A stretch of 64,000 nt of DNA from Anaeromyxobacter terrae (GTDB lineage Bacteria; Myxococcota; Myxococcia; Myxococcales; Anaeromyxobacteraceae), in assembly GCF_022690685.1 (NCBI RefSeq), contig NZ_JALCYY010000001.1:1-64000 (forward strand), given 5' to 3'. The notes under the pieces are model-generated. The model was not told where the DNA came from. It searched no databases and saw only the letters and a program-made list of their open reading frames with translations. How positions within the stretch are numbered: the first letter of the stretch is position 1; every line of letters starts with the position of its first letter. Shown in pieces: positions 36,094-42,054 of this stretch. A program made the translations under genes and the position numbers.

Positions 36094-36516
36094 TCAGGGC
36101 GCCTGGTCGGCGACGACGATGTCGTAGTTGTGCACCGTCGGCTCCGGGTCGATGAGGAACTCCGCGTCCCGCGGCAGCGCGCGCGTCCGCGAGATGTCCT
36201 CGCCCGCGTACGCGTGGATCGCGTCGCGCGAGGCCCAGTAGCTCACCACCATGAAGTGCGACTCCGACGGTCCGTCCTCCCGGTACATGGCGTAGCCGAG
36301 GTTTCCGGGGATCTGGCGGAACTTCCGGATCGCCTCCGAGGCGTACGCCGCATACTCGTCGGCGCGGGCCGTGGGGGTGCGGCCGTGCCATACGCGGGCG
36401 ACGCGAGCGCCCGCGGGAGCGGCGGCGCCCATTCCGGCCTTCGCCCCGGGCTGGCCCGCGGACGGGCTGGCGCAGGCGACGGCGAGGAGCAGCAGCGAGA
36501 GAGCGAGGGTGCGCAT
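36094..36516 (-). CDS. ABM-like (dimeric alpha-beta barrel) lipoprotein
   Basis: 140 residues. The ATG at 36516 has a strong AAGGAGGT four bases upstream and begins a lipoprotein signal MRTLALSLLLLAVACASP. The body resembles the antibiotic-biosynthesis-monooxygenase / heme-degrading barrel: ARVWHGRTPTARADEYAAY, RQIPGNLGYAMYREDGP, FMVVSYWASRDAIHAYAGED. Such domains bind heme or aromatics, but many act only as structural proteins. It follows the sigma-54 activator gene on the same strand after 123 bp containing a perfect inverted repeat. Confidence 0.75.
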   Translation of the reverse strand: MRTLALSLLLLAVACASPSAGQPGAKAGMGAAAPAGARVARVWHGRTPTARADEYAAYASEAIRKFRQIPGNLGYAMYREDGPSESHFMVVSYWASRDAIHAYAGEDISRTRALPRDAEFLIDPEPTVHNYDIVVADQAP

Positions 36517-36639: not shown

Positions 36640-38616
36640 TCACGGTGCGTGATGATCCGCGTCGCCGGCCGGACCTCGGTGCTCTCCGGGCCGCGCGATC
36701 GCGAGCGCCTTCATGCGGGACTTGAGCGTGGAGGGGCTCACGCCGAGGAGCGCGGCGGCCCCGCCCCTGCCGCCGACACGCCAGCCGGCCCGCTCCAGCG
36801 CGGCGATCATGTTCCCGCGCTCGATCGCGCGCACGCGCTGGTCGGTCAGGACCTCGCTGTCCACGGGTAGTGCGTGTGCATCGCTCGCGGTGGCCGGGAA
36901 CCCCGCCTCGGGGAGCGCGCGGTGCAGGTGGAGCCGGCCGTCGGCGGAGGTGATGATCGCCCGCTCGACCACGTTCCTCAGCTCCCGGACGTTCCCGGGC
37001 CAGGGATACGACCTGAGCGCGGCGGCGTCCGCCGCATCGGGCGGGGCGACCCTCCTCCCGAGCGCGCGGGCGAGCTTCTCCGCCATCGCCGCGGCGAGCA
37101 GCACGACGTCGTCGCCGCGCTCGCGCAGCGGCGGGAGCGGGAGCGGGAAGACGCTCAGCCGGTAGAAGAGATCCTGCCGGAACCGGCCCTCGCGGGCAGC
37201 CCGCGCGAGGTCGCGGTTCGTCGCCGCCACGACGCGCACGTTCACCTTGCGCGTGCGCGAGCTCCCCACCGGCTCGAGCTCGCCCTCCTGCAGGACCCGC
37301 AGGAGCTTGCCCTGCAGCTCCAGGGGGAGCTCGCCGATCTCGTCGAGGAAGATGGTCCCGCCGTCGGCGAGCACGAACCGTCCGTCGCGCCGCTGCGTCG
37401 CCCCGGTGAACGCGCCGCGCTCGTGCCCGAAGAACTCGCTCTCGATGAGGGTCGCCGGGATGGCCGCGCAGTTCACCTTCACGAGCGGGCGGTCGCGGCG
37501 GGCGCTGCGGTCGTGGATGGCCCGGGCGAAGAGCTCCTTCCCGGTGCCGGTCTCGCCGAGGAGCAGCACCGTCGCGTCGGTGCCCGCCACCTGCGCGACG
37601 CCCTGGAGCGCCCGCCGCAGCGCCGGGCTCCTGCCCACGATCTCGTCGAACCCGTGCTCCGCCGCGAGCTCCTCGCGGAGGTAGTCCGCTTCCGCGCTCA
37701 GCGCCCGGATCCTCCGCTCCGCCTCGAGGCGCTCGTCCACGTTCCTCAGGATGAGCGTGTAGAACGGCCGGCCGCGCACCTCGAACCGCGAGAGCGTCGC
37801 CTCCGCCGGGAACGGCTTGCGCCCTGGCGGCTCGGCCACGAGGTCACCCGGGATCCACAGGGAGCGCTCGCCGCCCGTGCGCCGCTCCAGCTCGCCGGTC
37901 AGGGCGCGGAGCCTCGCGGTCGCGGCGCTGCCCAGGAGCTCGTCCGCCGGCCGCCCGTGCAGCTCGGCGGCGGCGCAGCCAAACACCTTCTCGGCCGCGG
38001 AGTTCATGAGCGTGATGTGGAGCTCGCCGTCGAGCTCGACGATCCCGTCCATCGCGCTGCCGATGAGGCCGGAGAGCTTCTCCTGGCGCTCGCGCAGGTC
38101 CTGCTCGACGCGGACGCGCCGCATCTCCGCGAGCGCGCGGCTCGCGAAGATCCGGAACAGCGGAACGAGCCGCTTCTCGGCGGGCATGGGTCGGGTGTCC
38201 ACGACCGCGAGGTGGCCGAGCACGCGGTCCTCCCGCCCGAGCAGGGGAACGCCGAGGTAGCTGACGACCCCGGAGCGGGAGAACTTCACCTCGCCGTTGG
38301 GGTACAGCTCGATCACGCGATCGGGGATGTGCACCACGCGTCGCTCGCGCACCGCCGTCTCGCACGGCGTGCCGGCGATCGGGTACTCGAACCCCTCCAC
38401 CCAGCCGTCCCCGAACCAGAACGCGAGCGCACGCAGCCGATCCCGGCGCTCGTCGTACTCGGTGAGCCAGGCGCCGCGCGTGTCGAGCGCCAGCGCCATG
38501 TTCCGGACGAGCGCCCGGTAGAACTCCTGCCCGGTCTCCGAGGCGGTCCCCTCGACCACCGCGCGGAGGGCGAGCTCCTCGTCGATCCGCCGCTCCGTGA
38601 CCTGGGAGAGCTCCAT
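36640..38616 (-). CDS. FhlA/NorR-like sigma-54 transcription activator (GAF-PAS-AAA+-HTH)
   Basis: 658 residues from ATG 38616 (GGAG seven bases upstream). GAF ~20-185 ([37 protein letters not shown]), PAS ~195-310 ([20 protein letters not shown]), AAA+ ~325-555 (Walker [17 protein letters not shown] near 352, RGAFTGATQ contact loop, [13 protein letters not shown] Walker B) and a C-terminal HTH ([20 protein letters not shown] then LKSRMKAL) of the FhlA/NorR style. With no receiver it is ligand- or redox-controlled through GAF. Its gene is divergent from the OsmC operon, whose leader carries a sigma-54 promoter and an inverted repeat; it is very likely that operon's activator (inference). Confidence 0.93.
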
Positions 38617-38712
38617 GTTCGGCTCCGGGGTGAGGACCCGAGGCGTGGCGCGCCGCGAACCCGGAACATAGCGAGGCCGCCGCGGCGCGCCCGGCGAAAG
38701 CCCGTCGAGCCG

Positions 38713-38749
38713 CGCGACGAGATCTCGCCCACGCCGAGGTCTCGTCGCG
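38713..38749. promoter_or_regulatory. Inverted repeat, candidate enhancer (UAS) for the sigma-54 activator
   Basis: CGCGACGAGA at 38713-38722 and its exact reverse complement TCTCGTCGCG at 38740-38749, separated by 17 bases and centred about 85 bp upstream of the -24 element. The arms' centre spacing of 27 bases and the position match upstream activating sites of enhancer-binding proteins. The binding protein is inferred. Confidence 0.5.
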
Positions 38750-38815
38750 ACCCCGCCGGGCCGGTGGCGCCCGGAAATCCCGCTGAATCCGGTCGAACCG
38801 AGGCTCGGTCCGCCG

Positions 38816-38830
38816 TGGCACGCCGCCTGC
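38816..38830 (+). promoter_or_regulatory. Sigma-54 promoter of the osmC-flavoenzyme operon
   Basis: TGGCACG-CCGC-CTGC agrees with TGGCACG-N4-TTGC at all but one of the defined bases, with the invariant GG/GC spaced exactly. Predicted transcription start ~38842, 50 bases before the OsmC ATG. A matching activator gene is divergently encoded. Confidence 0.7.
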
Positions 38831-38891
38831 GATTCCCGCCGTCGCCCAGCGAAGAGACCGATGACCGGTCCACGGGCCACGGAGAACGAGG

Positions 38892-39497
38892 ATGGAGACC
38901 CCCACGATGCAGAACCCCACGACCACGAAGCGGCCCGCACGCACGCCCGTGCCGATGAACGGCGTCGACACACCCACGCTCTTCGCGACCATCGGCGCGG
39001 TGAAGGGGCAGCCCGAGCTCGGGAGCTTCCAGTTCCGGGCGACGAACCGCTGGCAGCAGGGCACCCACAGCCGGACGCGCATCGAGGGATTCAGCGGCGC
39101 CGGGGGCGAGCACGCGCACGCGCGCGAGTTCAGCTACGACGCCGATCACCCGGCCGTCCTCGTCGGGCGGGACCAGGGCCCGACGCCGGTCGAGTTCCTG
39201 CTCCACGCGCTCGCGTCCTGCCTCACGGCGGGGATCGGCAACATCGCCGCGGCGCGCGGCGTGACGCTCTACGAGGTCGAGTCCACCGTCGAGGGCGACA
39301 TCGATCTGCGCGGGATCCTCGGGATCTCGACGGAGGTCCGCAACGGCTACCGGCAGCTGCGCGTGAGCTTCCGGATCAAGGGCGACGCGCCGGCGGAGAA
39401 GCTCGAGGAGATCGTCGCGCAGTCGCGGGCCCGCTCGGCGGTCTACGACGTGCTGACGAACGGCGTCCCGGTCGCGGTCTCGGTGAACGCGGGGTGA
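38892..39497 (+). CDS. OsmC-family protein
   Basis: 201 residues. The OsmC/Ohr fold is clear: [40 protein letters not shown] with the first conserved Cys, the Val-rich strands [18 protein letters not shown], and a C-terminal [17 protein letters not shown]. In Ohr/OsmC peroxidases a second Cys sits in that C-terminal motif (xCPVxxx); here it reads SAVYD, so only one redox Cys remains, as in the YhfA-like subgroup. Thiol peroxidase activity is thus uncertain. First gene of a three-gene unit with two flavoenzymes, behind a sigma-54 promoter. ATG 38892 (GGAG eight bases upstream). Confidence 0.88.
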
Positions 39498-39577
39498 ATG
39501 AGGGGTTCGAGGCCGCCGGCCGGACGCGAGACGCGCGCCGGCCGGCGGCCCCCCGCCACGCTCCTCGAGGAGATGCC

Positions 39578-40819
39578 ATGAAGCGCACGGACGTGGTCGT
39601 CATCGGAGGTGGGCAGGCCGGGCTCGCGGCCAGCCGCTGCCTGCAGGCGCGCGGCGTGGATCACGTGGTGCTGGAGCGCGGACGCGTCGCCGAGCGCTGG
39701 CGCTCGGAGCGCTGGGACTCGCTCCGGCTGCTCACCCCCCGCTGGCAGTCGCGGCTCCCGGCCTTCTCCTACCGTGGCCCGGAGCCGGACGGGTTCATGT
39801 CGCGGCGCGAGGTGATCGGCTACCTCGAGGCGTACGCGCGCTCCTTCGCGGCGCCGGTCGAGGCGGGCGTCGCCGTCCACGCCGTCGAGCGGGACGGGGA
39901 CGGCTACCGGGTGACGGCCGATCGCGGCGCGTGGCGCGCCCGGAGCGTCATCGTCGCGACCGGTCACTGCGACCGGGCCCACGTCCCACCGCTCGCGGCC
40001 GAGCTCCCCGCGGACGTGGTCCAGCTCGTCCCGGCGCGCTACCGGAACCCCCGGGCCCTGCCCGCCGGTGGAGTCCTCGTGGTGGGCGCGTCCGCGACCG
40101 GAATCCAGCTCGCGGACGAGATCCACCGCTCCGGCCGGCCGGTGACGCTCGCGGTGGGCAGGCACGTCCGGCTGCCCCGGCGCTACCGGGGCCGCGACGT
40201 GATGGAGTGGCTCGACGCGACGGGCATCCTCGACGAAGGGGCGGACGCGGTGGCGGACCTCGAGGCGGCCCGCCGCCAGCCGTCGCTCCAGCTCGTCGGC
40301 CGTCCCGATCATCGCACGATCGATCTGGGCGTGCTCCTCGACGCGGGCGTCCGACTCGTCGGACGGGTCCGGGGCGTCGAGGGCGGCCGCGTGCTCCTCG
40401 CCGAGGACCTGGACGAGACGGTCGCGGCGGCGGAGCGGCGGCTGGCGCGGCTCCTCGGGCGGATCGACGCGCACGTCGCGCGGCACGGCCAGGCGGCGGC
40501 GGTCCCACCGGCGGAGCCGGTCCGCGCCATCTCGCCGCCCCGTCCGCCGGGCGCGATCGATCTGCGCGCGGACGTGATCCGGACGGTGATCTGGGCCACG
40601 GGCTACCGCCGCAGCTACCCGTGGCTGCGCGTGCCGGTGCTCGACGAGCGCGGCGAGATCCGCCACGCAGGCGGGATCACCCCCGCGCCCGGGCTGTACG
40701 TGCTCGGGCTCCAGTTCCTGCGGCGGCGCAACTCGAGCTTCCTCGACGGCGTCGGCCGGGACGCCGCCGTGCTGGTGGACCACCTGGCCGGACGCCTCGC
40801 GCGCCGGTCCGCCGCGTGA
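39578..40819 (+). CDS. FAD/NAD(P)-dependent oxidoreductase (flavin monooxygenase-like)
   Basis: 413 residues. FAD-binding Rossmann start VVVIGGGQAGLAASRCLQAR, then RWRSERWDSLRLLTP, an NADPH Rossmann motif GVLVVGASATGIQLADEIHR, and TVIWATGYRRSYPWL (the ATGY motif of FMOs). This fits the CzcO/YpmO-like flavoprotein monooxygenase group that oxidises soft nucleophiles or ketones; the substrate is unknown. GAGGAGA precedes ATG 39578. It is 80 bp after osmC and 14 bp before the next flavoenzyme, with no terminator seen, so all three are likely one transcript. Confidence 0.88.
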   Translation: MKRTDVVVIGGGQAGLAASRCLQARGVDHVVLERGRVAERWRSERWDSLRLLTPRWQSRLPAFSYRGPEPDGFMSRREVIGYLEAYARSFAAPVEAGVAVHAVERDGDGYRVTADRGAWRARSVIVATGHCDRAHVPPLAAELPADVVQLVPARYRNPRALPAGGVLVVGASATGIQLADEIHRSGRPVTLAVGRHVRLPRRYRGRDVMEWLDATGILDEGADAVADLEAARRQPSLQLVGRPDHRTIDLGVLLDAGVRLVGRVRGVEGGRVLLAEDLDETVAAAERRLARLLGRIDAHVARHGQAAAVPPAEPVRAISPPRPPGAIDLRADVIRTVIWATGYRRSYPWLRVPVLDERGEIRHAGGITPAPGLYVLGLQFLRRRNSSFLDGVGRDAAVLVDHLAGRLARRSAA

Positions 40820-40833
40820 GCGGAGGAGAGACC

Positions 40834-42054
40834 ATGACGACCTCGAGCCATTCGAGCATCCGCCGCGAGTACGACGCCCTCGTCGTGGGCGCCCGCTGCG
40901 CCGGCGCCGCGACGGCGATGCTGCTCGCGCGCGCCGGCCTCCGCGTCCTCGCCGTGGACCGAGATCGCGAGGGGAGCGACACGATCTCGACCCACGCCCT
41001 CATGCGCGGCGGCGTGGTCCAGCTCGTGCGCTGGGGGCTCATCGATCGGCTGCGCGCGACGGGCACCCCCGCCGTCCGCAGCGCGACCTTTCACTACGGG
41101 GACGAGGCGCTGCCGTTCGCGGTCAAGCCGCGCGATGGCGTGGACGCGCTCTACGCGCCGCGCCGGACGGTGCTCGATCCCATCCTCGTCGACGCGGCCC
41201 GCGCCGCGGGCGCGCAGGTGGTGCATGGCGCAGCGCTCGCGGAGGTGGTCCGTGGCGCGTCCGGGCGGGTCGAGGGAGCGGTGATCGAGACCCTCGACGG
41301 CGCCCGCGCGCGCGTGGCGGCGCGGATCGTGATCGGCGCCGACGGCGCGCGGTCGAGAGCTGCCCGCCTCGTGAGCGCCCCCACCGAGCGCGCGGGCCGC
41401 CACGCGTGCGGAGTGGTCTACGGGCACTGGTCGGGTCTCGAGGTGGAGGGCTACCACTGGTACTACCGACCCGGCGTGAGCGCCGGCGCCATCCCCACCG
41501 GCGACGGGCGCACCTGCGTGTTCGCCGCGCTGCCGCGGCCGCGGCTCCTGGACGCGCTTCCCGGAGGCGTGGACGCCGTCTACCGGGAGGTGCTGGCCGA
41601 GGCTGCGCCCGAGCTCGCCGCCGCGCTCGGAAGCGCCCGCCTCGACGCGAGGCTCCAGCCCTTCCCCGGGATCCCTGGCTTCATGCGCCGGGCGTGGGGC
41701 CCGGGCTGGGCGCTGGTCGGCGACGCCGGGTACTTCAAGGACCCCATCACCGCGCACGGGATCACGGACGCGCTGCGGGACGCGGAGCTGCTCGCGCGCG
41801 CGGTGGCGAGCGGCACCGAGGCCGCGCTGGCCGCCTACCAGGCGGCGCGCGACGCGGCGTCGGTGGAGCTGTTCGAGGTCACCGATCGCATCGCCTCGTT
41901 CGAGTGGGACCTCGAGGAGGCGAAGGGGTTGCACAGGCTGCTCGCGCGCCACATGGCGAGCGAGGTGGAGCTGCTCGGCGCGCTCGACGTCGTTTGCGTC
42001 CCGGGTCAGCCCCCGCTACCATCCGGGGCGTCGTGCGGGTACTCCTCGTCCTGA
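40834..42054 (+). CDS. FAD-dependent oxidoreductase, geranylgeranyl-reductase/PHBH-like
   Basis: 406 residues. ADP-binding motif YDALVVGARCAGAATAMLLA, then VDRDREGSDTISTHALMRGG, the mid-protein FAD motif RIVIGADGARSRAARLV, and WALVGDAGYFKDPITAHGIT (the GD motif binding FAD ribityl). This is the layout of aromatic hydroxylases and geranylgeranyl reductases; which reaction it runs is unknown. ATG 40834 follows GGAGGAGAG. Last of the osmC operon. Its stop at 42054 lies 22 bp inside the next coding region, linking it translationally to the metal-efflux genes or marking an operon border. Confidence 0.86.
   Translation: MTTSSHSSIRREYDALVVGARCAGAATAMLLARAGLRVLAVDRDREGSDTISTHALMRGGVVQLVRWGLIDRLRATGTPAVRSATFHYGDEALPFAVKPRDGVDALYAPRRTVLDPILVDAARAAGAQVVHGAALAEVVRGASGRVEGAVIETLDGARARVAARIVIGADGARSRAARLVSAPTERAGRHACGVVYGHWSGLEVEGYHWYYRPGVSAGAIPTGDGRTCVFAALPRPRLLDALPGGVDAVYREVLAEAAPELAAALGSARLDARLQPFPGIPGFMRRAWGPGWALVGDAGYFKDPITAHGITDALRDAELLARAVASGTEAALAAYQAARDAASVELFEVTDRIASFEWDLEEAKGLHRLLARHMASEVELLGALDVVCVPGQPPLPSGASCGYSSS

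Follow-up and report, generated by a model that had tools for sequence, protein, structure and literature searches.

The region between two divergent genes in the window, by which we mean the whole stretch of 64,000 nucleotides analysed, very probably carries a dedicated sigma-54 switch, in which a group 3 (NorR-like) enhancer-binding protein acts through tandem dyads and a -24/-12 promoter to drive an osmC–flavoprotein–flavoprotein operon. The parts and the logic of this switch are textbook ones, of a well-known general type. Its most notable feature is a geometry that stays fixed across phyla while the targets are swapped. The features of the locus are as follows.

36640–38616, minus strand: sigma-54 activator (enhancer-binding protein, 658 aa) with GAF, PAS, AAA+ (GAFTGA) and Fis HTH domains (Pfam Sigma54_activat 3e-71, GAF 2e-11, PAS_4, HTH_8)
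38695–38704, no strand: degenerate first putative operator dyad, CGAAAGCCCG, matching YGARATYTCR at 8/10 positions, 23 bp before dyad 2
38713–38749, no strand: dyads 2 and 3 together, which make up the inverted repeat of the earlier note, with 15-nt arms that are 14/15 complementary
38718–38727, no strand: putative operator dyad 2, CGAGATCTCG, centre 38722.5, 8/10 columns invariant across five genomes
38735–38744, no strand: putative operator dyad 3, CGAGGTCTCG, centred on 38739.5 and 78 bp upstream of the -24 GG, position and dyad form conserved
38816–38830, plus strand: sigma-54 -24/-12 promoter, TGGCACG-CCGC-CTGC
38842, plus strand: predicted transcription start, 12 nt past the -12 GC, placed from sigma-54 promoter geometry
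38892–39497, plus strand: OsmC-family protein of 201 aa with a single invariant cysteine, C110 (PF02566 2e-19; PDB 2OPL 1e-45)
39578–40819, plus strand: flavoprotein monooxygenase-like protein (Pyr_redox_3), related to the MSMEG_0569 and ArsO families below their cut-offs, conserved beside osmC
40834–42054, plus strand: FAD-binding PF01494 monooxygenase/reductase-like protein, the third gene of the putative operon

The activator combines a GAF regulatory domain, an AAA+ domain with the GAFTGA motif and a C-terminal HTH, the architecture by which group 3 bacterial enhancer-binding proteins (bEBPs) are defined (PMC7175178). Its assignment as a NorR equivalog was rejected at 354 bits against the curated NCBIfam cut-off of 476, and as an FhlA equivalog at 337 bits against 830. 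The label "FhlA-like" in the earlier note thus holds in a broad sense, but not at the level of the FhlA model. From the GAF and PAS domains the switch may be ligand-sensed, as that note had it. A search for the activator among plasmids gave no match. Directly downstream of its gene, on the same strand, lies a gene (36094–36516) whose product has an ABM-type monooxygenase domain and a lipoprotein-like signal, and which among the orthologous regions tested was seen only in A. soli.

At E ≤ 1e-60, about 42 AAA+ activators can be counted in the genome. G000:C24:81258-82238 (L057) is a sensor-less paralog consisting of AAA+ and HTH only, 80% identical to the activator over these two domains, and the recognition helices of the two proteins are nearly identical (SPSTFKSRMKALEI versus a 14-residue counterpart). 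Together with L058 (G005:C9) and L060 (G007:C1:1762096) it belongs to a set of short activators, 72–81% identical over AAA+ and HTH and without GAF-PAS, which share nearly the same recognition helix and could provide a second input at the osmC array. We looked for matching dyads beside the sensor-less paralogs and found none.

Next, we consider the promoter element. Its letters and strand are as first described, TGGCACG-CCGC-CTGC facing osmC, and its GG and GC lie 10 nt apart in TGGCACG-N4-CTGC, the spacing expected for sigma-54 when set against the TGGCAC-N5-TTGC context; the -12 box, CTGC, is one base off TTGC. The sigma-54 score of the 275-bp region was equalled in 2 of 300 dinucleotide shuffles. 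Genome-wide, TGGCACGN4YTGC was not enriched: it matched exactly at 5 sites, and the reversed pattern, used as a control, at 27. The motif alone is therefore not beyond chance, and the evidence for it is its conservation. A single rpoN gene is present in the genome, scoring 437 bits where the cut-off lies at 277, and a sigma-70 promoter scan at the locus found none.

Upstream of this element, the earlier note had described one inverted repeat about 85 bp away. Its arms, CGCGACGAGA (38713–38722) and TCTCGTCGCG (38740–38749), are present, and the centre of the repeat at 38731 is indeed 85 bp before 38816; what had been taken for a single repeat is, however, formed by the outer boundaries of two dyads lying side by side. 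When extended, the arms cover 38713–38727 and 38735–38749, and their complementarity was reached in 0/300 dinucleotide shuffles of the 275-bp region. Dyads 2 and 3 are 17 bp apart centre to centre, which gives the window a spacing of 23/17/78 bp (dyad 1 to 2, dyad 2 to 3, dyad 3 to the -24 GG). The putative operators number two to three, two of them good and one degenerate, instead of one repeat. The claim that a complete sigma-54 switch fits within 275 bp is upheld as to the single rpoN, the activator domains and the conserved elements, and amended as to the number of operators. A generic dyad-pair score was not significant (103/300 shuffles equally good); significance attaches to the specific motif and to how it is conserved, not to dyad pairs in general. 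A whole-genome search for further double-dyad copies returned nothing clearly exceeding the reversed control, and a larger regulon was not shown.

The divergent activator/osmC pair and three downstream genes are kept in five Anaeromyxobacter genomes, those of the window and four others, among them Anaeromyxobacter soli SG29 (G005) and A. oryzae (G006). In the five-genome alignment, 31% of the intergenic columns and 17% of those between enhancer and promoter are invariant, as against 11/11 specified bases of the promoter and 0/4 of its spacer. Paired changes in the arms keep the dyad form, CGACGAG../..CTCGTCG in the window versus CGGCGAG../..CTCGCCG in A. soli, and both dyads are near-perfect in G007 (GACGAGTCCTCGTC, GCGACGAGCTCTCGTCGC). 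In A. oryzae a third, perfect dyad (CGAGATCTCG) lies 23 bp further upstream, where the window copy is degenerate. The first dyad of A. oryzae begins within about 30 bp of the activator start codon, which suggests that autorepression is also possible.

We observed the same arrangement far beyond Anaeromyxobacter. When the GAF-PAS part of the activator alone served as query, 8 of 195 Myxococcota genomes (five Anaeromyxobacter and three other) and 44 of 175 Nitrospira-family genomes yielded an ortholog; the link to the latter came from Nitrospira sp. CR1.3 (L140), whose activator is 58% identical over its length and adjoins an OsmC homolog. At nearly all examined activator loci, two or three dyads of the form YGARATYTCR, which is the dyad form adapted to base composition, are followed by a -24/-12 element. 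In the eight Myxococcota loci CGAGNNCTCG was observed 15 times against 0.18 expected, and in 28 Nitrospira-family loci YGARATYTCR with at most one mismatch was observed 80 times against 6.3 expected. A strict -24/-12 element stood in 22 of these 28 loci (0.11 expected) and in none on the opposite strand. In both phyla, most of the loci that were scored had a spacing of 22–23 bp, 17 bp and then 74–79 bp (about 77) to the -24 GG; exceptions were G149, G150 and L192, for which a three-site fit gives other values. The check proposed in the earlier note, that repeat and -24/-12 element should recur at orthologous loci, thus came out positive in 5/5 Anaeromyxobacter, with the same geometry beside the Nitrospira activators. 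In a control set of 77 activator-less osmC homologs, 0 had two such dyads, and neither did the additional osmC gene of A. oryzae. The dyads lie upstream of the promoter and are conserved together with the activator, as is characteristic of a bEBP enhancer.

The target, in contrast to the switch, varies by locus. In most of 12 Nitrospira-family regions the genes after the activator encode a membrane protein and then an OsmC protein 46–52% identical to that of the window; the small membrane-type protein had no Pfam match. Three relatives keep activator and operators with other target genes: in G010 an identical promoter element (TGGCACGCCGCCTGCG) precedes a BBE-type FAD oxidase gene, and G149 and G150 have an AurF-like protein (weak match). 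These differences indicate that the activator has no exclusive bond with osmC: the switch is constant and the target variable, and the osmC genes it faces belong to two subgroups in two phyla.

We weighed three other explanations. The dyads might be the operator of another regulator, for instance a TetR- or MarR-type repressor, with a different activator serving the sigma-54 element; their size is also typical of repressor sites, and the roughly 42 AAA+ activators of the genome would offer candidates. However, the array tracks the activator orthologs over two phyla and before four kinds of target operon, is absent from the 77 activator-less osmC loci, and keeps a distance near 77 bp from the -24 GG in the two phyla alike, a constraint that repression would not call for. 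We consider this explanation improbable. A terminator or attenuator hairpin, accompanied by a chance -24/-12 match, could be suspected since the array comes right after the activator stop codon in Nitrospira and in G149/G150. A terminator scan, however, found no site with a T-run, the units are separate, loopless dyads of 10–16 bp, and they keep a fixed spacing to a -24/-12 element that stands in 22/28 Nitrospira-family loci where 0.11 were expected. The conserved geometry refutes the hairpin for practical purposes, and we give it hardly any credence.

Binding of the sensor-less paralogs to the same array, as a second, signal-independent or mixed-hexamer input, is more of a contender, although we still regard it as rather unlikely. 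The near-identity of the recognition helices speaks for it, and as the paralogs have no matching dyads beside them they could act in trans. On the other hand, they are not known to be expressed, and G006 and G002, which lack such close copies among the matches listed, have kept the array.

Returning to the switch operated by the neighbouring activator, its working can be proposed by analogy with well-studied bEBPs, most closely NorR. The divergently encoded activator, with its GAF and PAS sensors, would bind the tandem dyad array as dimers about 80–120 bp upstream of the -24/-12 promoter. On perceiving its signal, presumably a small molecule, it would assemble there into an AAA+ hexamer, which, with the DNA looped, would touch sigma-54 RNA polymerase by means of its GAFTGA motif. 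The promoter would then be opened, and osmC and both flavoprotein genes would be transcribed as one operon from the predicted start. Our guess from the target enzymes is that the signal is an electrophilic or oxidised organic compound. A wider proposal, for which we put the chances at about even, is that of a portable cassette made up of the activator gene, its enhancer of three dyads and the sigma-54 promoter. It would be rigid at 22–23/17/about 77 bp in Nitrospirota and Myxococcota, would have been re-wired to different redox enzymes (OsmC with flavoproteins, a BBE-type oxidase, an AurF-like protein, a membrane protein with OsmC) and would sense an electrophilic or oxidised metabolite.

In Escherichia coli, three enhancer sites in the norR–norVW intergenic region are required for activation by NorR and scaffold its oligomer (PMC2941729). 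The present locus resembles that system in having a GAF-controlled AAA+ activator encoded beside its target, with three putative enhancer sites in the DNA between the two genes. It differs in that a PAS domain follows GAF, in the operator sequence, and in its target of osmC and flavoproteins, with NO sensing not indicated. FhlA is likewise a GAF-type group 3 activator with a related HTH, but for sites of the FhlA and NifA type the pattern given is TGT-N10-12-ACA (PMC6615313), whereas the putative operators here read YGARATYTCR. A Nitrospira cluster of SMR, RND efflux, OsmC, metallo-beta-lactamase and sigma-54 regulator genes is noted in words in PMC12516955, whose passages on it, as consulted, describe no promoter or operator; its regulator probably belongs to the same activator orthogroup, because strain CR1.3 is named in that paper. 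Apart from this gene-cluster remark for Nitrospira, our literature searches turned up nothing joining sigma-54 with OsmC in these organisms, and nothing for Anaeromyxobacter. A likely operator, promoter and target operon can be assigned, from sequence alone, to a bEBP orthogroup of which we found no description in the literature searched. A three-site geometry that is constant at phylum scale also offers a natural test set for relating enhancer spacing to bEBP hexamer assembly and looping. For single-cysteine OsmC proteins and the flavoproteins that accompany them, the switch further offers a way to approach their function, as the signal of the activator would be a clue to the substrate.

The OsmC protein shares its family profile match with the OsmC/Ohr peroxidases, and PDB 2OPL is the closest solved sequence. 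These enzymes have a pair of catalytic cysteines, however, whereas here C110 stands alone, the only invariant cysteine in an alignment with 8 relatives, which makes a peroxidase role doubtful. The second gene was rejected as an MSMEG_0569 flavin oxidoreductase (369 bits against a curated cut-off of 498). OsmC–flavoprotein–flavoprotein modules without this activator (L082–L125) are common in Acidobacteriota, Actinomycetota and other phyla, and A. oryzae has a second osmC with a PF01494 flavoprotein gene (L056/L153) that lacks activator, dyads and -24/-12 element. At 38891–38920 a 15-nt near-duplication (GATGGAGACCCCCAC/GATGCAGAACCCCAC) bears both candidate ATGs of osmC, and the choice between these in-frame starts is uncertain. 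The gaps within the operon are about 80 bp between osmC and the second gene and about 15 bp between the second and third. The former contains a very stable hairpin (39502–39554, -53 kcal/mol, z -4.6) with a 13-bp GC stem, GGCCGCCGGCCGG/CCGGCCGGCGGCC, and inner pairs, which perhaps serves differential mRNA stability inside the operon. In the four orthologs, the same gap also folds into strong hairpins, of different sequence.
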